Origin: an uncultured Vicinamibacterales bacterium
GTDB taxonomy: Bacteria; Acidobacteriota; Vicinamibacteria; Vicinamibacterales; UBA8438
Length of the DNA stretch: 64,000 nucleotides
Assembly (NCBI GenBank): GCA_958295905.1
Contig: OY282382.1
Location: 5,638,910 to 5,702,909, forward strand
Reading direction: 5' to 3'
Shown: positions 39,652-49,993 of the stretch, one piece after another
How positions within the stretch are numbered: the first letter of the stretch is position 1
Layout: every line of letters starts with the position of its first letter
The notes under the pieces: model-generated
What the model was told of the DNA's origin: nothing
Seen by the model: only the letters and a program-made list of their open reading frames with translations
Database searches by the model: none
Position numbers and translations under genes: made by a program

Positions 39652-39688
39652 GCGGGAGTCCGCGCGGGGGAACGGTGCGGACTCCCGC
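39652..39688. repeat. REP-like hairpin inside the operon
   Basis: GCGGGAGTCCGC and GCGGACTCCCGC form a perfect 12-bp stem around a 13-base loop. The sequence matches the hairpin half of the REP-like family in this window. Its place between the ferredoxin and radical SAM genes could stabilise the upstream mRNA or lower downstream expression. Confidence 0.6.
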
Positions 39689-39767
39689 CGGATCGGCGGG
39701 GCGGACAGCGGTGCCGCGGATTGGCGCCGTCGGGGCCGGGACCGGCGGGGTTGGGAGCGGAACGATC

Positions 39768-40973
39768 ATGTTGAGAGCGGCGGCCGGCCTCGGCTATCGC
39801 ACGATGCGCTCGACCGACGCGCGCCTGTTGTGGAAGTTCGCGTACAACTTCGGCTACAAGGGCGTCCGCTCGGTCCAGAAGTTCAAGAAGCGCCTCAAGG
39901 CGGGGGTGTCGTTCCCCCCGTTCCTCTACATCTCGATCACCAACGCCTGCAACCTGCGCTGCCAGGGGTGCTGGGTCGACGTCGACAAGCCCCAGCACCT
40001 GATCAGCTACGACGACCTGAACCGGCTCATCGACAACGCCAAGCAGCACGGCAACAGCTTCTTCGGCATCCTCGGCGGCGAGCCGTTCATGCACCCGGAC
40101 CTCATCCGGGTCCTGAAGGCGCACCCCGACTGCTACTTCCAGATCTTCACCAACGGCCACCCCATCACCGACGCCACGGCCGAGCGGCTGCGGGAGGCGG
40201 GCAACGCCACCCCGCTCATCAGCGTCGAGGGCACCGAGTCGATCAGCGACGTCCGGCGCGGCCGCGGGGGGGTGCTGAACCGCACCCTCGAGGGCATCCG
40301 GGCCAGCGTCCGCCACGGGCTGATCACCGGCGTCTGCACCAGCGTCTGCCAGTCGAACATCGACGACCTCGTGCGCGAGGAGTGGATCGACCGGTTGATC
40401 GGCATGGGGGTGCATTACTGCTGGTTCCACACCTATCGGGTGGTGGGGCCGGTCCCCAACCCCCAGCTCGCGCTGACCCCCGAGCAGGTGCTGTCGGTGC
40501 GCCGCTTCGTGATGGACATGCGCAACCGCAAGCCCATCGGCCTCATCGACGCCTACTGGGACGACAAGGGGCAGGCGCTGTGCCCGGCCGCGACCGGCAT
40601 CAGCCACCACATCGGCCCCTTCGGCGACGTCGAGCCCTGCCCCATCATCCAGTTCGCGAACGAGAAGATTCAGGACAACGACGGCGACCTTTACAAGACG
40701 ATGACCGAGTCGCCGCTGCTCGCGGACTTCCGCCGGACCGCGGCCGACGCGACCCGGGGCTGCATCGTGCTCGAGCGCCCCGACCTGCTCCAGGAGATCG
40801 TCGAGCGGCACGGGGCCGGCGACACGACGATACGCCGGACCGCCGGCCCCGAGCTCGAGGCGCTGCGCCCGCGGCCCAGCCAGCACAACCCCGGGAATGA
40901 GATTCCCGAGGAGAACTGGGTCTATCGGTTTGCGAAGAAGCACTGGTTCTTCGGATTCGGTGCGTATACATAA
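39768..40973 (+). CDS. Radical SAM enzyme, HpnH/SPASM-like, of the terpenoid operon
   Basis: This 401-residue radical SAM protein has the cluster motif CNLRCQGC (Cys61, Cys65, Cys68) after LYISITNA. It continues with ILGGEPFMHPDLIRVL, FQIFTNGHPI and PLISVEGTESISDVRRG, the order of the PqqE/HpnH-like branch. C-terminal cysteines in CPAATGISHHIGPFGDVEPCPIIQF and GCIVLE suggest a SPASM-like auxiliary cluster. HpnH adds adenosine to diploptene in hopanoid synthesis, which is suggestive beside a squalene-cyclase-like gene, but this protein is longer and has the auxiliary cysteines, so the reaction is open. GGGAG lies 10 bp before the ATG at 39768. The DUF116-prenyl synthase gene follows after 16 bp. 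Confidence 0.87.
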   Translation: MLRAAAGLGYRTMRSTDARLLWKFAYNFGYKGVRSVQKFKKRLKAGVSFPPFLYISITNACNLRCQGCWVDVDKPQHLISYDDLNRLIDNAKQHGNSFFGILGGEPFMHPDLIRVLKAHPDCYFQIFTNGHPITDATAERLREAGNATPLISVEGTESISDVRRGRGGVLNRTLEGIRASVRHGLITGVCTSVCQSNIDDLVREEWIDRLIGMGVHYCWFHTYRVVGPVPNPQLALTPEQVLSVRRFVMDMRNRKPIGLIDAYWDDKGQALCPAATGISHHIGPFGDVEPCPIIQFANEKIQDNDGDLYKTMTESPLLADFRRTAADATRGCIVLERPDLLQEIVERHGAGDTTIRRTAGPELEALRPRPSQHNPGNEIPEENWVYRFAKKHWFFGFGAYT

Positions 40974-40989
40974 GGGATCAGTCAGGCCC

Positions 40990-42759
40990 ATGGCCACGGA
41001 CACATCGAACTACGCCGCCGAAACCCAGGTCATCCCCCTGCTGCAGCTCCCGGCACAGGTGCCCCGGCAGACCTACCGGCCGGCGCAGTCGAACATCCCG
41101 GACGACAAGGCGGTGCGGGTCCGCCTGAAGCGTGTCGCCGAGGAGCACGTCAAGCGGGTGGGCGCGGTCCCCCCGCTGACCCTGGACGAACTGACCGAGC
41201 ATACCGCCGCGGTGCTCGCCGAGGCCGGTCTCGACCCGATCTACGGCGACTACGCGTCGATTCTCGTCAGCAACGCCGCCTGGCGGGACTCGCTCGCCCG
41301 GATTCCCTACGAACGCCGGCTCCTCCTCATCCCGAAGTGCCTGCGGGTGGAGGAGAAGTGCCCCGCCCCGTTCGACGAGTTCGGCCTGCTCTGCAAGGAA
41401 TGCGGGCTGTGCTCGATCCAGGACCTGACGGTCGAGGCCGAACGGCTCGGCTACGCCGTGCTCGTGGCCGAGGGCTCGGCCATCGTCCGCTCGATGATCG
41501 AGACCGGCAAGATCGAGGCGATCGTCGGCGTGAGCTGCATCAACGTGCTGGAGAAGTGCTTCCCGCACATGGAGGCGGCGTCGATCCCCGGCGTCGCGAT
41601 ACCGCTGCTGCAGGACGACTGCGTCAACACCACCGTCGACCTGGACTGGGTCTGGGACCTGATTCACCTGACGAGCGACGACAAGACGTACCGTCTGGAC
41701 CTCGACGCGCTCAAGACGACGGTGCGGGGCTGGTTCGCCTCCGATGAGCTCGACGAGATCATGGGCCCGGTGGACGTCGAGGACGTCACCGCCCGCATCG
41801 CCCGCGACACCCTCGAGAAAGGCGGCAAGCGCTGGCGGCCGTATCTTGCGGCGTGCACGTACATGGCCCTCGAGACCGACCGCCGGGACACCGAGCCGAA
41901 CCTGACGGCGGCGGTCCGGAAGGCGGCGGTGGCCATCGAGTGCTTCCACAAGGCGTCGCTCATCCACGACGACATCGAGGACGGCGACGACCGCCGCTAC
42001 GACAGCCCCGCCCTGCACACCGAGGTCGGGGTCCCGGTGGCCCTCAACGCGGGCGACTTCCTGGTCGGCGAAGGCTACCGGCTGCTCGCCGAGGCGGGCC
42101 GCCCCGAGGCCGTCGCAATCGCGGCCGAGGGCCACGTGACCCTGAGCCGCGGCCAGGGCCGCGAGCTGCTGTGGGCGCGCGACCCGCAGCCGCCGGCGTC
42201 GTTGCAGGTGCTCGACATCTTCCGGCAGAAGACGGCGGCGGCCTTCGAGGTGGCGCTGCGCATCGGCGCCATTTTCGGCGGCGCCGACGCGGCGACGCAC
42301 GATGTGCTGCGGAAGTACAGCGAGTCGCTGGGCATCGCCTACCAGATCAAGGACGACATCGACGACTTCAGGGGCGAGGCCGACTCGAACGACCTCGACC
42401 AAGTGCGCCTGTCCCTCATTCTGACCATCGCCCACAAGCGGGCCGAGGGCGGCGACCGCGATCGCGTCGCGTCGGCCATCCGGTCCGGTGCGGCTGACCC
42501 GGCGGAGACGGAGGAGATACGCCGCATCGCCGAGGAGTACGGCGTCCTCGACAAGGCCGAGGACCTCCTCGCCGCCTACCGCGAGGACGCCGTCCGGTCG
42601 CTGCGGTTCCTGGCGAGCCCGACCCTCAAGGGCCTGATGCGCCGTATCGTGGGCAAGATCTTCGGCGAGACCCTGATCGAGGGCTACTGCAGTGAGTTTG
42701 AGACTCGAAATGCTGCAAGTCGCGCGGCTGGCGCCGACGCTGCTGCAGGAAGCCTCTGA
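40990..42759 (+). CDS. DUF116 - polyprenyl synthetase fusion protein
   Basis: This is a 589-residue two-domain protein. Residues about 60-255 are a DUF116 domain, recognised by RLLLIPKCLRVEEKCPA, LLCKECGLC (Cys117, 124, 135, 138, 141), AEGSAIVRSMIETGKIEAIVGVSCINVLE and LLQDDCVNT; it is cysteine-rich and probably holds a metal or cluster. Residues about 265-560 are a trans-isoprenyl diphosphate synthase, with GGKRWRPYLA, the first Asp-rich motif DDIED (327-331) and the second DDIDD (455-459), which bind Mg-diphosphate. It should elongate allylic diphosphates to a chain whose length I cannot predict. I know of no described protein with this domain pair. The ATG at 40990 is chosen; upstream in-frame sequence overlaps the radical SAM gene. 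Confidence 0.88.
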   Translation: MATDTSNYAAETQVIPLLQLPAQVPRQTYRPAQSNIPDDKAVRVRLKRVAEEHVKRVGAVPPLTLDELTEHTAAVLAEAGLDPIYGDYASILVSNAAWRDSLARIPYERRLLLIPKCLRVEEKCPAPFDEFGLLCKECGLCSIQDLTVEAERLGYAVLVAEGSAIVRSMIETGKIEAIVGVSCINVLEKCFPHMEAASIPGVAIPLLQDDCVNTTVDLDWVWDLIHLTSDDKTYRLDLDALKTTVRGWFASDELDEIMGPVDVEDVTARIARDTLEKGGKRWRPYLAACTYMALETDRRDTEPNLTAAVRKAAVAIECFHKASLIHDDIEDGDDRRYDSPALHTEVGVPVALNAGDFLVGEGYRLLAEAGRPEAVAIAAEGHVTLSRGQGRELLWARDPQPPASLQVLDIFRQKTAAAFEVALRIGAIFGGADAATHDVLRKYSESLGIAYQIKDDIDDFRGEADSNDLDQVRLSLILTIAHKRAEGGDRDRVASAIRSGAADPAETEEIRRIAEEYGVLDKAEDLLAAYREDAVRSLRFLASPTLKGLMRRIVGKIFGETLIEGYCSEFETRNAASRAAGADAAAGSL

Positions 42760-43468
42760 CCCGGTCGCCCAGTACCTCCATGCCCGGTTCAACGACGACG
42801 GCGGCGCCGCCGACCGATCCGGGCGGAGCGATCTCTACTACACGGTCTTTGCCCTCGAAGGCCTCATCGCGCTGCAGCGCGATCCCCCGCCCGGGGTCCA
42901 CGGCTTCCTCGAGTCGTTCGGCGACGGCGGCGACCTCGACCTCGTGCACCTGTGCTGCCTCGCCCGGTGCCGGGCGGCGGTGAAGCAGCCGGGCCCCGAC
43001 CTCGCCCCCCGCATCCGCGGGCAATGGGACCGCGGCAGCGTCTATCACGGCTTCCTCGCGTGGGGCGCCCTGGAGGACCTGGGACAGCGGCCGGAACCGT
43101 TCGCGGTGCCGGGGGGCACCGGCGTCCGAACCACCCCGACGACGGCGGCCGCGGTGACCCTGCTCCGCCGGATGGGCGTCCCGGTTCCCCCGGAGGCGAC
43201 CCGGTGGCTGATGGCGCGGGCCCACCCCGAGGGGGGGTTCCTGGCCACCGACGCGGCACCGATGCCCGACCTGCTGTCGACCGCCACCGCCCTGCACGCC
43301 CTCGCCGGCGAGCACGTACCGTTCGAGCACCTGAAGGAGCCGACGCTCGACTTTCTCGACACGCTGTGGACCGGCAACGCGTTCTGCGGAACCTGGGCCG
43401 ACGATGAACCGGACTCCGAGTACACCTGGTACGCGCTCCTCGCCATGGGCCACCTCAGCCTTGCGTGA
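42692..43468 (+). CDS. Half-size prenyltransferase/squalene-cyclase-fold protein
   Basis: This soluble alpha-barrel protein is 252-258 residues long. Starts at GTG 42692 or ATG 42710 both lie inside the end of the prenyl synthase gene. Repeats of the protein-prenyltransferase beta-subunit and terpene-cyclase family are visible in SDLYYTVFALEGLIAL, HPEGGFLATDAAPMPDLLSTATALHALAG and GNAFCGTWADDEPDSEYTWYALLAMGHL. It is about the length of one alpha-alpha barrel and lacks a DxDD motif. It may bind a prenyl chain or be a subunit of the cyclase encoded next, which starts within its last codons. Catalytic activity is uncertain. Confidence 0.75.
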   Translation: MSLRLEMLQVARLAPTLLQEASDPVAQYLHARFNDDGGAADRSGRSDLYYTVFALEGLIALQRDPPPGVHGFLESFGDGGDLDLVHLCCLARCRAAVKQPGPDLAPRIRGQWDRGSVYHGFLAWGALEDLGQRPEPFAVPGGTGVRTTPTTAAAVTLLRRMGVPVPPEATRWLMARAHPEGGFLATDAAPMPDLLSTATALHALAGEHVPFEHLKEPTLDFLDTLWTGNAFCGTWADDEPDSEYTWYALLAMGHLSLA

Positions 43469-45374
43469 GCGGCTGCTCGCGGCCCGCACCCCGGCCGGCC
43501 ACTGGGAGGGCGAGCTGTCGTCGAGCCCCCTCTCGACCGCCACCGCGGTGACCGCGCTGTCGATCGCCGGCGGGAACGAGGCGCTCGTGCGCGGCGGGCT
43601 CCGGTGGCTGGCCGCCCACCAGAATGCGGACGGCGGCTTCGGGGACGCCGACGGTTGCCCCAGCAACATCAGCACGACGACCCTCGCGTGGGCCACCCTC
43701 GGGCAGCACCACGCGGTGGGGCGGGAACGGGCGGAAGCGTGGCTTTCGCGGCGCGTCGGCCCCCTGACCGCGGAGTCGCTGGCCGCCGCCATCACCCACG
43801 TGTACGGCGACGACCGGACGTTCGCGGTCCCCATCCTGACCCATTGCGCGCTCGCCGGGCGCTTCGGCTGGGAGCACGTGCCGGTGCTGCCGTTCGAGTT
43901 GGCGGCCCTCCCCCGCGCCTGGTTCAAGTGGGTCGGGCTGCCGGTGGTGAGCTACGCGCTGCCCGCGCTGATCGCGATCGGGCAGGCGCAGCACCACCAT
44001 CACCCGACCGCGAACCGGGCCGGCCGCGCGGTGCGCGACGCGGTCCGTGCGCGCACCCTGGGCATCCTCGAGTCGATCCAGCCCGCGTCGGGCGGGTTCC
44101 TCGAGGCGGCGCCCCTGACGAGCTTCGTCACCATGGCCCTCGCCGGCAGCGGCCTCGTCGAGCACCCGGTGGCGCGGCGCGGCGTCGCGTTCCTCACCGA
44201 CTCGGTCCGCGGGGACGGGAGTTGGCCGATCGACACCAATCTCGCCACCTGGCTCACCACCCTCTCGATCAACGCCCTCGGGGGGACGGCATTCACCGCG
44301 GAGGAACGGCGCTACCTGCGGCGCTGGCTGCTCGACCAGCAGTACCGCGTCGTGCATCCCTATACGCAATCGGCCCCCGGCGGCTGGGCCTGGACCGACC
44401 TGCCGGGCGGCGTGCCGGACGGCGACGACACCCCGGGCGCCCTCCTCGCGCTGGCCGAGCTCGGAGGGCACGGCGAGACCGCACGGGGCGCCGAAGCGGA
44501 CGCGGCCGTCGCCGGACGAGAGGCGTCCGCGGGGCACGGCGTGACGAGGGCGCAGGTTGGAAGCGGACAACCGCGGACTGAACGCGGTCGGACTCGGACG
44601 AGCAACGCGGCCCCCACGAGACACGGCGCCGGCCGCACGCAACGGAGCTTCCGCCATGGGCTCCCCGCGGTCGATGACGAGACACGGGCCGCGGCCGCCG
44701 CCGGCGTCGGCTGGCTGATCGACCTGCAGAACGACGACGGCGGCATCCCGACGTTCTGCCGGGGCTGGGGCCGGCTGCCGTTCGACCAGAGCAGTCCCGA
44801 CCTCACCGCCCACGCCCTGCGGGCGTGGCGGGCGTGGCGGGGGCTCGACCCGCGGGTCGACCGGGCGATGGAGCGGGCCGTCGCCTACCTGGCGCGCCAC
44901 CAGCGCCCGGACGGATCGTGGGTTCCGCTGTGGTTCGGCAACCCGTGGACGCCGGACCAGACGAACCCCGTCTACGGCACGGCGCGGGTCCTCGAGTGCC
45001 GGGACCTCCTGCCGAGCGAAGCGCGTCGGCGCGGCGAGCGCTTCCTCCGGACGATGCAGCAGGACGACGGCAGCTTCGGCACCATCGAGGAGACCGCCCT
45101 CGCGGCCGCCGCCACCGGCGACGCCCGCGGCCGGCACTGGCTCCTCACGCGGGCCGCGTTCGAGCCGTCCCCCATCGGGCTCTACTTCGCGAAGCTGTGG
45201 TACTTCGAGAAGCTCTACCCGCTGATCTTCACGGTCGCGGCGCTGGCCGCCGGCGACCAATACACCGTGGCCCCAACGCACCCAAACCCGCCGCCCCATC
45301 GTCCCGTCGAACTTGAAGTGGCCAAGGCCACGCGCGGCTCCATTTTGAGCTTCGCGCTGGCGGCGACTACTTGA
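43404..45374 (+). CDS. Squalene-hopene-cyclase-like class II terpene cyclase
   Basis: This is a 656-residue class II cyclase with the proton-donating DxDD motif, PDGDDTPGALLAL (DGDD near residues 338-341). It has several QW repeats: QNADGGFGD, QNDDGGIPTF, QRPDGSWVPLWFGN and QQDDGSFGT. The core from ERLLAARTPAGHWEGELSSS to EKLYPLIFTVAALA matches squalene-hopene cyclases in length and order. Between the DxDD segment and the next helix (nt about 44480-44660) lies a ~60-residue Arg/Ala-rich insertion with no family counterpart. The start is ambiguous: ATG 43404, or TTG 43461, which overlaps the upstream stop (TTGCGTGA) and sits right before the conserved part. The last ~30 residues are also atypical. 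It should cyclise a linear polyprene made by the adjacent synthase. Confidence 0.88.
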   Translation: MNRTPSTPGTRSSPWATSALRERLLAARTPAGHWEGELSSSPLSTATAVTALSIAGGNEALVRGGLRWLAAHQNADGGFGDADGCPSNISTTTLAWATLGQHHAVGRERAEAWLSRRVGPLTAESLAAAITHVYGDDRTFAVPILTHCALAGRFGWEHVPVLPFELAALPRAWFKWVGLPVVSYALPALIAIGQAQHHHHPTANRAGRAVRDAVRARTLGILESIQPASGGFLEAAPLTSFVTMALAGSGLVEHPVARRGVAFLTDSVRGDGSWPIDTNLATWLTTLSINALGGTAFTAEERRYLRRWLLDQQYRVVHPYTQSAPGGWAWTDLPGGVPDGDDTPGALLALAELGGHGETARGAEADAAVAGREASAGHGVTRAQVGSGQPRTERGRTRTSNAAPTRHGAGRTQRSFRHGLPAVDDETRAAAAAGVGWLIDLQNDDGGIPTFCRGWGRLPFDQSSPDLTAHALRAWRAWRGLDPRVDRAMERAVAYLARHQRPDGSWVPLWFGNPWTPDQTNPVYGTARVLECRDLLPSEARRRGERFLRTMQQDDGSFGTIEETALAAAATGDARGRHWLLTRAAFEPSPIGLYFAKLWYFEKLYPLIFTVAALAAGDQYTVAPTHPNPPPHRPVELEVAKATRGSILSFALAATT

Positions 45375-45468
45375 ACCAGCGGCGATACAGCAACTCGCTC
45401 GACCTCTTCGCTATACAACTCATGAACCACAAGTAGATGCTCATGAACACCAAGGCGGCCATCACCAT
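45367..45468 (-). CDS. Possible 33-residue antisense membrane peptide
   Basis: On the minus strand, GGGGGGA precedes ATG 45468, which opens a frame encoding VMAALVFMSIYLWFMSCIA then KRSSELLYRRWFK and a TAG at 45367. One transmembrane helix with a basic tail is typical of small membrane proteins, and this stretch is notably AT-richer than its surroundings. It occupies the 150-bp gap between the cyclase and cysteine desulfurase genes. It could instead be the tail of a lost larger gene, since the frame stays open to 45531. Evidence is limited. Confidence 0.3.
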   Translation of the reverse strand: MVMAALVFMSIYLWFMSCIAKRSSELLYRRWFK

Positions 45469-45526
45469 CAGTCCCCCCGTGGGAATGCTCACGACCTGCC
45501 AAACAGCCGCTGCACCCCGAGTTCCG

Positions 45527-46672
45527 ATGATCTACCTGGACCACAACGCCACGACGCCCCTCGACCCCCGGGTCCTCGACGCGATGCTGCCGTTCCTCAC
45601 CGATCGCTTCGGCAACGCGGCGAGCCGCCACCACGCCCTCGGCTGCGCCGCCGCCACCGCGGTCGAGACGGCGCGCGGGCAGGTGGCGTCGGTCATCGGG
45701 GCCGACCCGCGGGAGATCGTCTGGACGAGCGGCGCGACCGAGTCGGACAACCTCGCCCTGCAGGGGGTCGCCGGCGCGCCGGCGTACGCGAAGAAACGGC
45801 ACGTCGTGACGGTGGCGACCGAGCACCGCGCCGTCCTCGACACCTGCGAACGCCTCGAGAGTCAGGGAATCGCCGTGACGTATCTGGGGGTCGACGGCGA
45901 CGGGCGGCTGGACCTCGACCGCCTCGCCGCGGCGATCACGGAGCGGACCCTGCTCGTCTCGGTCATGCACGCCAACAACGAGACCGGCGTCCTGCACCCC
46001 ATCGCCCGCATCGGCGCGCTTTGCCGCGGGCGCGGGGTCCTGTTCCACACCGACGCCACCCAGTCCTACGGCAAGGAGCGGATCGACGTGAACGCCATGC
46101 GCATCGATCTACTGAGCGCCAGCGCCCACAAGATCCACGGACCGAAGGGCATCGGGATGCTCTTCGTCCGGCGCCGCGGCCCCCGCGTGCGCTGCGAGCC
46201 GCTGGTGCACGGCGGCGGCCACGAGCGCGGACTCCGCTCGGGCACCCTCAACGTGCCCGGCATCGTGGGCATGGGGACCGCGGCCACCCTGGCCGCCGAG
46301 AACGGCGCCGTGCGCACCCTGCGGGACCGCCTGGAGACCGGCCTGCAATCCCGCGTGGACGGGGTCGCGGTCAACGGCGGCCGGGCCGAGCGCCTCGCGA
46401 ACACGACGAACCTCAGCTTCGCCGGGGTGGACGGGGCGAAGCTGATGAAGCGGATGCCCGGGCTGGCGGTGTCGTCCAGCTCCGCCTGCACCAGCGCCGC
46501 CCTGCAGCCCAGCTACGTGCTCGGCGCGATGGGCTGCGACGACGCCCGCATCCGCGGCAGCGTCCGCTTCTCGCTCGGACGCTTCAACACCGCCGAACAG
46601 ATAGAGACCGCCATCAAGACCGTCGCCGGAGCCGCGGCGGCTTTGCGGGCCGGGTCGACGGCCGTCCCGTAA
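45527..46672 (+). CDS. iscS: Cysteine desulfurase, NifS/IscS type
   Basis: This 381-residue PLP enzyme removes sulfur from L-cysteine as a persulfide for Fe-S clusters and other sulfur cofactors. MIYLDHNATTPLDPRVLDAM is the typical start, hence ATG 45527. The PLP-binding lysine is in SASAHKIHGPKGIG, and the active-site cysteine is in VSSSSACTSAALQPSYVLGAMG. RSGTLNVPGIVGMG is also conserved. It lies 150 bp beyond the terpene operon on the same strand. Given the many Fe-S proteins and the lipoyl carrier upstream (lipoyl synthase consumes cluster sulfur), it may serve that pathway. Its last ~143 bp are duplicated twice after the stop. Confidence 0.92.
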   Translation: MIYLDHNATTPLDPRVLDAMLPFLTDRFGNAASRHHALGCAAATAVETARGQVASVIGADPREIVWTSGATESDNLALQGVAGAPAYAKKRHVVTVATEHRAVLDTCERLESQGIAVTYLGVDGDGRLDLDRLAAAITERTLLVSVMHANNETGVLHPIARIGALCRGRGVLFHTDATQSYGKERIDVNAMRIDLLSASAHKIHGPKGIGMLFVRRRGPRVRCEPLVHGGGHERGLRSGTLNVPGIVGMGTAATLAAENGAVRTLRDRLETGLQSRVDGVAVNGGRAERLANTTNLSFAGVDGAKLMKRMPGLAVSSSSACTSAALQPSYVLGAMGCDDARIRGSVRFSLGRFNTAEQIETAIKTVAGAAAALRAGSTAVP

Positions 46673-47816: not shown

Positions 47817-48554
47817 GTGAAGCTGCTGGTCTACCTGTGGGCACCGTTCGCGAACCTGCTCTGGTACGCCCACACGGTGGTCATGGCGAGTCTGTCGTTT
47901 TTCATCTGGCCCTTCGACGGCACCGGCGACCGTCAGTTCTGGTGCGCGCGCTGGTGGTGCCGGCTCGTGGCGTGGTCCATCTTCGCCCGCATCCGGGTGC
48001 ACGGCGTCGAGCGGGTCCGGGGAGACCGAAGCTACGTGTACGTGGCGAACCACGCGAGCCTCATCGACACCCCGGCGCTGTTCGCGTACCTGCCGTACCC
48101 GTTCCGCATCGTGGCGAAGCGCAACCTCTTCTTCGTGCCGTTCATGGGCTGGCATCTGTGGACGGCGGGGCACTTCCCGATCGACCGCCGCGACCCGCGC
48201 AAGACCGCGCGCAGCCTGCGCCGGGTCATCGAGGGGGTGCGGCGCGGCCGCTCGCTGGCCGGGTTCCCCGAGGGCACCCGGACCCCCGACGGCCGTCTCC
48301 AGGACTTCAAGCCGGGGCTGTTCCGGATCGCCCTCAAGGCCGGCGTACCCGTCGTCCCCGTCACCATTCGCGGCACCTTCGCCCTCCTCCCCCGGACCAC
48401 CCTCGCCCCGCGGCCCGGTTCCGTCGACGTGATCGTGGGAGAGCCGATCGCCACCACCGACTACGGCGAGCGGGGGGTGGACCGGTTGATCGACCACACG
48501 CGGGAGGTGATACGGGAGACGCTTGAAGCGGGCTCGCCGGACCGGCGCGGGTGA
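47817..48554 (+). CDS. plsC: 1-acyl-sn-glycerol-3-phosphate acyltransferase
   Basis: This 245-residue membrane-associated acyltransferase should convert lysophosphatidate to phosphatidate in phospholipid synthesis. The HX4D box is NHASLIDTPAL near residue 80. The acyl-acceptor motif is FPEGTRTPDGRLQDFKPG near 152, and VPVVPVTIRG follows. An N-terminal hydrophobic segment (LLWYAHTVVMASLSFFIWPF) anchors it. The length and order match PlsC. The GTG at 47817 is used, 16 bp after the LON-domain gene. Downstream, 48555-48806 is non-coding, with a REP-like half hairpin (GGGAGTCTGCGCCC near 48677). Confidence 0.9.
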   Translation: MKLLVYLWAPFANLLWYAHTVVMASLSFFIWPFDGTGDRQFWCARWWCRLVAWSIFARIRVHGVERVRGDRSYVYVANHASLIDTPALFAYLPYPFRIVAKRNLFFVPFMGWHLWTAGHFPIDRRDPRKTARSLRRVIEGVRRGRSLAGFPEGTRTPDGRLQDFKPGLFRIALKAGVPVVPVTIRGTFALLPRTTLAPRPGSVDVIVGEPIATTDYGERGVDRLIDHTREVIRETLEAGSPDRRG

Positions 48555-48806
48555 GCAGCCTGCGGCGCAACCCCGCGCCCCAACGACAGTGACTCACCAG
48601 ACGCTCGAAGGGGTCGCCCCCGGTGGGGTGAACGACCATGGCGCAACCCCGCGCCGCACCGGGGTCGGGTCGCCGGGAGTCTGCGCCCTGGGAGCGGTGC
48701 GGCGCCTCACTTTCCTGGCGCGCCCCCCCGATTCCCGGTCGAGGCTTGCCAATCCCCCGCACAACGAGTAGCCTGATACGGCTACGGATCACGAAGGAGC
48801 CTTTTC

Positions 48807-49262
48807 ATGCGCACGCTGCTCGCCGTTCTGTCGTTGCTGGTGGTCGGTTTCGGGGTCCACACCGCGGTGCGGACCCAGGAACCGGTCATCGAGGTCTACA
48901 AGTCACCCACCTGAGGGTGCTGCGTGGGATGGGTCTTGCATCTCAAGGAAGCGGGTTTCAACGTACGAACCACCGACATGCCCGACGTGACGCCGCTCAA
49001 GCAGGAAAAGGGGATTCCGCAGCGGCTTTTCTCGTGCCACACGGGCCTCGTCGACGGCTACGTCATCGAGGGCCACGTGCCGGCCGAGGACATCCGCCGG
49101 CTGCTCGACGAGCGCCCCGACGTCGCGGGCATCTCGGTGCCGGGCATGCCCGTCGGCTCGCCGGGCATGGAGGGTCCGAAGTCGTTCTACCGGGAGTATC
49201 CGGTCATCTCCTTCACCGACGACGGCGAGCTGGCGCTCTACAACACCCACACGCCGCAATAG
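48807..49262 (+). CDS. DUF411 family protein with in-frame TGA, candidate selenoprotein
   Basis: From ATG 48807 (AAGGAG seven bases upstream) the frame reads a signal-type N-terminus (LLAVLSLLVVGFGVHTAV) and VIEVYKSPT, then TGA at codon 36 (48912-48914). It continues GCCVGWVLHLKEAGFNVRT through to a TAG at 49262. DUF411 proteins have YKSPTCGCC at this place, so TGA replaces the first motif cysteine, giving U-G-C-C if read as selenocysteine. Homology continues without shift on both sides: QRLFSCHTGLVDGYVIEGHVPAEDI and the C-terminal MEGPKSFY. The full product is 151 residues, normal for the family. DUF411 proteins are periplasmic, probably metal-binding, and often copper-linked. The alternative is a point nonsense mutation (TGC to TGA). 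The following hairpin favours decoding. Confidence 0.8.
48925..48945 (+). promoter_or_regulatory. SECIS-like hairpin downstream of the in-frame TGA
   Basis: In the mRNA, UGGGAUG (48925-48931) pairs with CAUCUCA (48939-48945) as a seven-pair stem including one G-U pair, with the seven-base loop GGUCUUG. The loop begins 17 nt after the UGA. Bacterial SECIS elements place a small hairpin with G in the first loop positions about 16-37 nt after the codon, and E. coli fdhF has GGUCU in its loop. Pairing was worked out by hand. Confidence 0.6.
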
Positions 49263-49283
49263 CAGCGATAGCGGACCGGAGCA

Positions 49284-49437
49284 TGCGCGCCCTTGGGGAA
49301 GCCCTGGTGAAGCACCGTTCCCCGAGGACGCGTCTCCCCGGTACGCAACCGGCTCGTCAGCACGGGACCTGCGCGCCCTTGAGGAAGCCCTGATGAAGCA
49401 CTGTTCCTCGAGGACGCGCCTCCCGGTACGCATCCGG
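49284..49437. repeat. Tandem duplication after the DUF411 gene (86-bp period)
   Basis: TGCGCGCCCTTGGGGAAGCC at 49284 recurs as TGCGCGCCCTTGAGGAAGCC at 49370. The following bases (TGGTGAAGCAC, CGAGGACGCG, CGGTACGCA) are also repeated with few changes. The region 49263-49549 contains no recognisable gene. Confidence 0.6.
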
Positions 49438-49549
49438 GTCCTTCCGGCGGGGACCGCCATCTGCGCGCATCGTTCCCGTCCCCACCGCCGGCGCTCCCGT
49501 TTCACCGCCTCGTCCCGGTTGCCGGCGGCCCTCTCCTGACCAGGGCCGG

Positions 49550-49993
49550 ATGCCTCCGCACGCCTGTCCGCCCCGCGACCGGGCGCCGCAGCAGGCGGCG
49601 GCCGTTCCTTTCCGAGACCGCGCAGGCACGGTCGAGATCTGCCTGATCACAACCATCAGGACCGGCCGATGGACCGTACCCAAGGGGTTCATCGATCCCG
49701 GCGCCACCGCGCCGGAGACCGCGGTCAAGGAAGCCCGCGAGGAGGCGGGCATTCACGGGCGTGTCGTGGGCGGCCCGGTCGGTTACTATGACATCAGCAA
49801 GCAGGGCGGGCGTTACCGGGTCGCCGTCTATCTGATGCGCGTCGATCGGGTGGACGACCGTTGGGAGGAGCAGGCCCTCCGGCAACGGCGCTGGGCTTCC
49901 GTCCGCCGCGCGGAGAAACTGCTCGCCGGCCGGCCCGTCGAGGCCATGTTCCGGCGGGCGCTGACACACATCGACAACGAGGAACCATCATGA
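49550..49993 (+). CDS. Nudix hydrolase, diphosphoinositol-polyphosphate phosphohydrolase-like
   Basis: This is a 147-residue single Nudix domain. The box is GFIDPGATAPETAVKEAREEAGIHG (residues about 45-69), with the catalytic EAREEAG in place. The strand pattern AAAVPFRDRAGTVEICLITT, then RWTVPKGFID, matches the small DIPP/ADP-ribose-type Nudix proteins, which hydrolyse diphosphate bonds in nucleotides or polyphosphates. The substrate is unknown. Its stop overlaps the next ATG as ATGA, coupling it to the NIPSNAP gene. The start is uncertain; conserved sequence begins about residue 15. Confidence 0.87.
   Translation: MPPHACPPRDRAPQQAAAVPFRDRAGTVEICLITTIRTGRWTVPKGFIDPGATAPETAVKEAREEAGIHGRVVGGPVGYYDISKQGGRYRVAVYLMRVDRVDDRWEEQALRQRRWASVRRAEKLLAGRPVEAMFRRALTHIDNEEPS

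Follow-up and report, generated by a model that had tools for sequence, protein, structure and literature searches.

A putative selenocysteine form of the copper protein CopG (DUF411) in an uncultured member of the Vicinamibacterales

A DUF411 gene found in the window (the whole stretch of 64,000 nucleotides that was analyzed) very likely encodes a selenocysteine (Sec) form of the exported protein CopG, with an in-frame UGA decoded by means of a hairpin and with a role in copper handling. Many unrelated bacteria very probably make a Sec form of this protein as well. Insertion of Sec at codon 36 is the best supported part of this reading: it is inferred, in the absence of protein or expression data, and we consider it close to certain. 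According to the proposed mechanism, SelB and tRNA-Sec would decode the UGA of codon 36 as Sec, aided by the downstream hairpin; elsewhere in genomes with Sec-CopG, UGA is an ordinary stop. The resulting protein would carry U-G-C-C where its homologues have C-G-C-C. The features of the gene are listed in Table 1.

Table 1. Positions of the Sec-CopG gene and its features in the window.
Feature	Position	Strand	Remarks
copG (DUF411) gene with Sec (inferred)	48807–49262	+	151 aa including Sec36; stop TAG 49260–49262
Ribosome-binding-type site GGAG	48796–48799	+	7 nt before ATG; read from the sequence, function inferred
N-terminus of the Sec-CopG frame, signal- or anchor-type	start ATG 48807	+	reading of the sequence
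TGA as Sec36 codon (inferred)	48912–48914	+	position 1 of the (C/U)GCC motif; conserved in homologues
Cys38 and Cys39 codons, rest of UGCC	48918–48923	+	invariant in 48 aligned homologues
SECIS-like hairpin	48925–48945	+	7-bp stem 48925–48931/48939–48945, loop GGUCUUG 48932–48938
Invariant Cys77-His78 codons	49035–49040	+	alignment of 48 homologues
GMPVGSPGM segment, codons 113–121	49143–49169	+	Met114 and Met121 invariant (alignment); copper role inferred from the family

The frame of 151 residues had one interruption, the TGA, which was located between VIEVYKSPT and GCCVGWVLHL; the standard code would yield just 112 residues, starting from the GTG at 48924. The part downstream of the TGA was identified as Pfam DUF411 (PF04214) with 96–98 bits against a cut-off of 27. 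The presence of TGA at the first cysteine of CGCC in a DUF411 gene, claimed in an earlier note made from the letters of this DNA, was thus confirmed; the start with a ribosome-binding-type site, the frame extending to TAG, and the normal DUF411 remainder were also as described there. Further disabling changes downstream, which that note had named as a possible refutation, were looked for in the DUF411 gene of the window, and none was seen. A dN/dS of about 0.1 downstream of the TGA within the genus indicated purifying selection, which was established by comparison for both sides of the TGA. The source genome (6.3 Mb) contained a single DUF411 gene, the copy of the window. Export of the encoded protein is inferred.

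Judging by sequence similarity and by a predicted structure, the DUF411 protein of the window is CopG, a copper protein with a thioredoxin fold. The earlier note had given the family correctly; the known function, that of the copper protein CopG, was not named in it. In a phmmer comparison, the window protein matched CopG of Pseudomonas aeruginosa (6wis) with an E-value of 3e-30. An AlphaFold2 model built from a 48-sequence alignment had a mean pLDDT of 91.5, and Foldseek matched it to the CopG structures 6wis and 6wje with an E-value of 1e-14, target-normalised TM-scores of 0.91–0.93, and 40–42% identity; the next matches, thioredoxins and glutaredoxins, had E-values above 0.01. The thioredoxin domain and the C-terminal extension of 6wis/6wje were both present in the predicted model. 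The CxCC motif of CopG was found as UGCC, with Sec replacing the first Cys. Since the DUF411 protein is CopG, the Sec position falls in a known copper-cluster motif. Comparison also established the conservation of ligand-type residues: residues 36–39 (U/C, G, C, C), W42, C77, H78, Y85, G89, H90, M114, and M121, among others, were invariant in the 48-sequence alignment.

Two papers assign to CopG a Cys-bridged tetranuclear (Cu4) copper cluster on CxCC and a role in copper redox chemistry (PMC7558416, PMC8456105), and the former states that the copper cluster of the family uses two Met residues (PMC7558416); both cite Hausrath et al. 2020. The window protein shares with CopG of P. aeruginosa (6wis/6wje) and CutG of Rhodobacter capsulatus the fold, the (C/U)GCC motif, the invariant Cys-His pair, the Met-containing segment, and an N-terminal signal or anchor. 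Unlike them, it has Sec for the first Cys of CxCC and lacks copper-gene neighbors: genes of a LON-domain protein, an acyltransferase, a NUDIX protein, and a NIPSNAP protein surround it in the window, and no copper genes adjoining Sec-CopG were found there. Copper operons were established by comparison in relatives. In the betaproteobacterial Sec loci, copG was found with genes of a multicopper oxidase, a cupredoxin, and CusF (11–14 loci); plasmid-borne Cys homologues adjoined genes of copper/silver ATPases, SilA, a heavy-metal two-component system, and a multicopper oxidase.

These data bear on the alternative that survives best, namely that the selenoprotein is a thiol-disulfide (UxxC) oxidoreductase without any copper role, in which the CopG cluster is not formed. 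The thioredoxin-like fold of the predicted model and the lack of copper genes beside the window gene are compatible with it, as is the position of Sec at the UxxC nucleophile, a common selenoprotein pattern (PMC13188914). However, all of the 120 non-redundant Sec homologues assembled retained GCC and the Cys-His pair of CopG as well as its segment with Met residues, of the GM-x-x-GSPGM type, and the Sec genes of betaproteobacteria are located in copper operons. We regard a function restricted to thiol-disulfide exchange as unlikely.

For the preferred reading, a Sec-CopG engaged in copper handling, the homology with CopG of P. aeruginosa suggests that UGCC and two Met residues would hold a multinuclear copper cluster and that the protein may interconvert Cu(I) and Cu(II) or shuttle copper in the periplasm. 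Sec might be a selenolate ligand of the copper cluster, the more reactive partner within a UxxC redox pair, or both at once. Copper binding is inferred, and so is whatever selenium adds to the protein; Se–Cu ligation is plausible, being inferred by homology only and untested. The broader proposal, a natural copper cluster with a Sec selenolate ligand that occurs in many bacterial phyla and has undergone repeated Cys/Sec exchange, is one toward which we lean only slightly. To our knowledge, no natural Cu–Sec cluster has been described. The metals at known Sec–metal sites are Mo/W, in the case of formate dehydrogenase, and Ni, in that of hydrogenase (PMC13188914).

The Sec machinery was complete in the source genome, which encoded tRNA-Sec (63 bits; ARAGORN also called tRNA-SeC(tca)), SelB (303 bits), SelA (542 bits), and SelD (290 bits). 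A search of the genome for selA, selB, selC, and selD had been proposed in the earlier note, and all four turned out to be present, as in E. coli with its fdhF and in bacterial selenoprotein decoding generally. Of the 28 genomes examined from the taxonomic family of the source organism, 25 had tRNA-Sec and 21 had SelB. Matches of at least 55 bits were accepted as clear tRNA-Sec because those of 46–52 bits probably include other long tRNAs. A clear tRNA-Sec was found in 30 of the 41 TGA-bearing genomes of the order; of the other 11, three had no tRNA-Sec match and eight had weaker ones. Some of these 11 genomes are incomplete, but not G027 (94%), G144 (92%), G114 (93%), and G040 (97%). Within the order, tRNA-Sec is present in most genomes, including those with the Cys form, so that the Sec machinery is a weak discriminator there.

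The hairpin downstream of the TGA had an energy of −7.8 kcal/mol when folded alone. Its loop of 7 nt begins with GG and starts 17 nt after the TGA, the hairpin itself starting 10 nt downstream. The hairpin with the loop GGUCUUG reported in the earlier note is therefore real, but the 17 nt given there as its distance apply to the start of the loop and not to that of the hairpin. It resembles the SECIS of E. coli fdhF in being small and in having an apical loop of the GGUC type 17–18 nt downstream of the UGA; its stem sequence, in contrast, is unrelated to that of fdhF. The hairpin of this gene taken alone scored z = −0.47 relative to dinucleotide-shuffled and +0.89 relative to synonymously shuffled sequences: it is not exceptionally stable, and its energy is uninformative as evidence. 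The bSECIS criteria also discriminated poorly, their energy limit being reached by 76% of the Sec and 66% of the Cys sequences, and an Rfam search of 48500–49700 gave no credible match.

Constraint on the hairpin at the RNA level is supported by sequence comparison, not by its energy. In 16 relatives forming the main group of the family, 47 degenerate codons were invariant in amino acid and only 6 of them were fixed to one codon; four of these six were the hairpin codons GGA, GTC, CAT, and CTC, identical in 16/16 relatives (hypergeometric p of about 8e-5, calculated by hand). With respect to the check for conserved downstream pairing suggested in the earlier note, this synonymous freezing is a result in its favor. 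In four other Sec lineages, codons 1–12 had a higher synonymous identity than the remaining codons (p 0.0003–0.03); the Cys homologues demonstrated a similar but weaker trend (p 0.027). The region just past the TGA folded better than synonymous shuffles in 78 non-redundant Sec genes (mean z −0.80, p 8.5e-8), whereas in 25 Cys homologues the same region did not (mean z −0.18, p 0.27). In three downstream control stretches, the Sec genes nowhere folded significantly better than the Cys genes. The stem register varied between Sec-CopG lineages.

The absence of protein data and the occurrence of the Cys form in relatives leave some room for a product without Sec, arising either by UGA read-through with another amino acid (Cys or Trp, through a near-cognate tRNA) or by termination as a short peptide. 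Such a product is very improbable in view of the complete Sec machinery, the co-occurrence with tRNA-Sec, and the conservation of the hairpin codons; moreover, the site is that of a redox or metal Cys, which is typical of Sec. The insertion of Sec giving a UGCC motif, as proposed in the earlier note, is supported by the machinery, the recurrence of the TGA, and the hairpin codons, the insertion itself remaining an inference. Of the checks named in that note, all those carried out favored its reading.

The TGA position certainly recurs beyond chance. A homologue was present in 25 of the 28 genomes of the family, with 52–95% identity to the window protein, and all but one of these 25 genomes had TGA at the codon 36 site (24/25). 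The remaining one had TGC (L042, genome G023); since tRNA-Sec and SelB are both present in that genome, its Cys form is not a consequence of machinery loss. In the order Vicinamibacterales, a homologue was found in 91 of 162 genomes, and the 70 loci read by codon had TGA (41), TGC (28), or TGT (1) at the site; neither TAA nor TAG occurred among those 70 loci. GTDB was scanned, one genome per species, with the pattern P-x-UGA-GCC-x-x-W[V/I/M]; at least 118 loci matched, of which at least 95 were DUF411 genes open on either side of the TGA. These loci and the family set share some genomes. According to this pattern scan, Sec-CopG occurs in at least eight phyla, and the recurrence of TGA in DUF411 of related genomes, named as a check in the earlier note, was borne out by the family set and by the scan. 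Among the matches listed, the carriers were Acidobacteriota, Pseudomonadota (Beta- and Gammaproteobacteria), Gemmatimonadota, Chloroflexota, Actinomycetota (Acidimicrobiia), Rokubacteria/Methylomirabilota, Desulfuromonadales and other delta-type groups, and Tectomicrobia; they were mostly metagenome bins, with one cultured isolate, Parendozoicomonas callyspongiae (L169). Also among the matches listed, tRNA-Sec was clear (at least 57.9 bits) in 38 of the 44 Sec-CopG genomes tested, as compared with 2 of the 6 genomes that matched the pattern by chance only.

The gene could in principle be a pseudogene, the TGA being a nonsense mutation one change away from TGC and the downstream frame a remnant or the product of an internal restart, for which the in-frame GTG at 48924 is a possible start. 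This is extremely improbable: the same TGA recurs in the family homologues and in the scanned loci, selection is purifying on either side of it, no TAA or TAG stands at the site in the 70 loci read by codon, and there is no second lesion, while a restart at 48924 would lose both the motif and the signal sequence. Pseudogene and restart were ruled out by conservation and selection. A genome-wide reassignment of UGA to an amino acid, for which there is no specific support and to which we give practically no weight, was ruled out because several homologues of the family are themselves terminated by TGA (e.g., L021, L026, L029, and L035), so that UGA is not simply reassigned, and because the standard code leaves the neighboring genes intact.

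Two irregularities were observed among the scanned loci. In a Burkholderiales bin, one locus (L189 4278) had the start of Sec-CopG with its middle part absent, and an intact copy (L124) was present in the same bin; L189 4278 may be a decaying or misassembled paralogue. In two GTDB metagenome bins titled Bordetella parapertussis (L091, L107), genes of a multicopper oxidase, a cupredoxin, and CusF were located close to that of Sec-CopG; judging by their titles, these look like mislabelled betaproteobacterial bins.

In a tree of 155 sequences, 13 changes of the Sec label were required by parsimony, and at least five of them were forced by well-supported branches, which argues for repeated exchange between Cys and Sec. 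The alignment is short, and the direction of change was not resolved by the tree.

We treat the protein as a Sec variant of an already known copper protein and, in this sense, as a new selenoprotein family. Neither DUF411 nor CopG is listed among the 119 prokaryotic selenoprotein families and subfamilies of a 2026 review (PMC13188914). Searches of the literature for DUF411 together with selenoprotein found nothing, although a mention in the groundwater-MAG study of Deng 2026 (unvalidated candidates) or in subscription journals is not excluded; those for CopG with selenocysteine found, among the matches listed, only papers unrelated by title. Within the literature searched, the remark of the earlier note that no described Sec DUF411 protein was known to its author agrees with both the catalogue and these searches. 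No NCBIfam model matched the window protein. Annotation pipelines usually take bacterial Sec codons for stops, and Sec-CopG genes are therefore likely to be annotated as truncated or to be missing.

Metal-linked selenoproteins of the catalogue include CopZ-family (2Fe-2S) proteins, the SO_0444-family Cu/Zn efflux transporter, the mercuric transport protein, and cation-transporting ATPase (PMC13188914, Table 1). Sec-CopG resembles them in having Sec in place of a metal-type Cys in a metal-handling protein; they belong to different families, none of them DUF411/CopG, and the UGC and UGSC families of the same table have domains different from DUF411/CopG. With its broad distribution (at least 95 loci in at least eight phyla) and its solved copper-cluster structure, the family makes the gain of selenium over sulfur testable on a defined metal site. 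If the reading is true, a biological Cu–Se site would exist in a copper-handling protein of many bacterial phyla, and bacteria of soil, marine, and groundwater habitats would have their copper handling tied to the supply of selenium.

Two further features were observed near the gene. Directly 3′ of it (49287–49420), a strong hairpin was present in two copies, 86 nt apart, with energies of −37.8 and −34.6 kcal/mol (z −2.4 and −3.6) and compensating changes between them (GGGGAA/UUCCCC versus GAGGAA/UUCCUC); the pair was absent from all other fetched loci, including those of the same genus. At 39675–46672, inspection by eye revealed a terpenoid-type gene run with an HpnH-like radical SAM protein, squalene/hopene cyclase-like ORFs, and a long ORF fusing a cysteine-rich domain with a polyprenyl synthase, followed by a cysteine desulfurase-like ORF.
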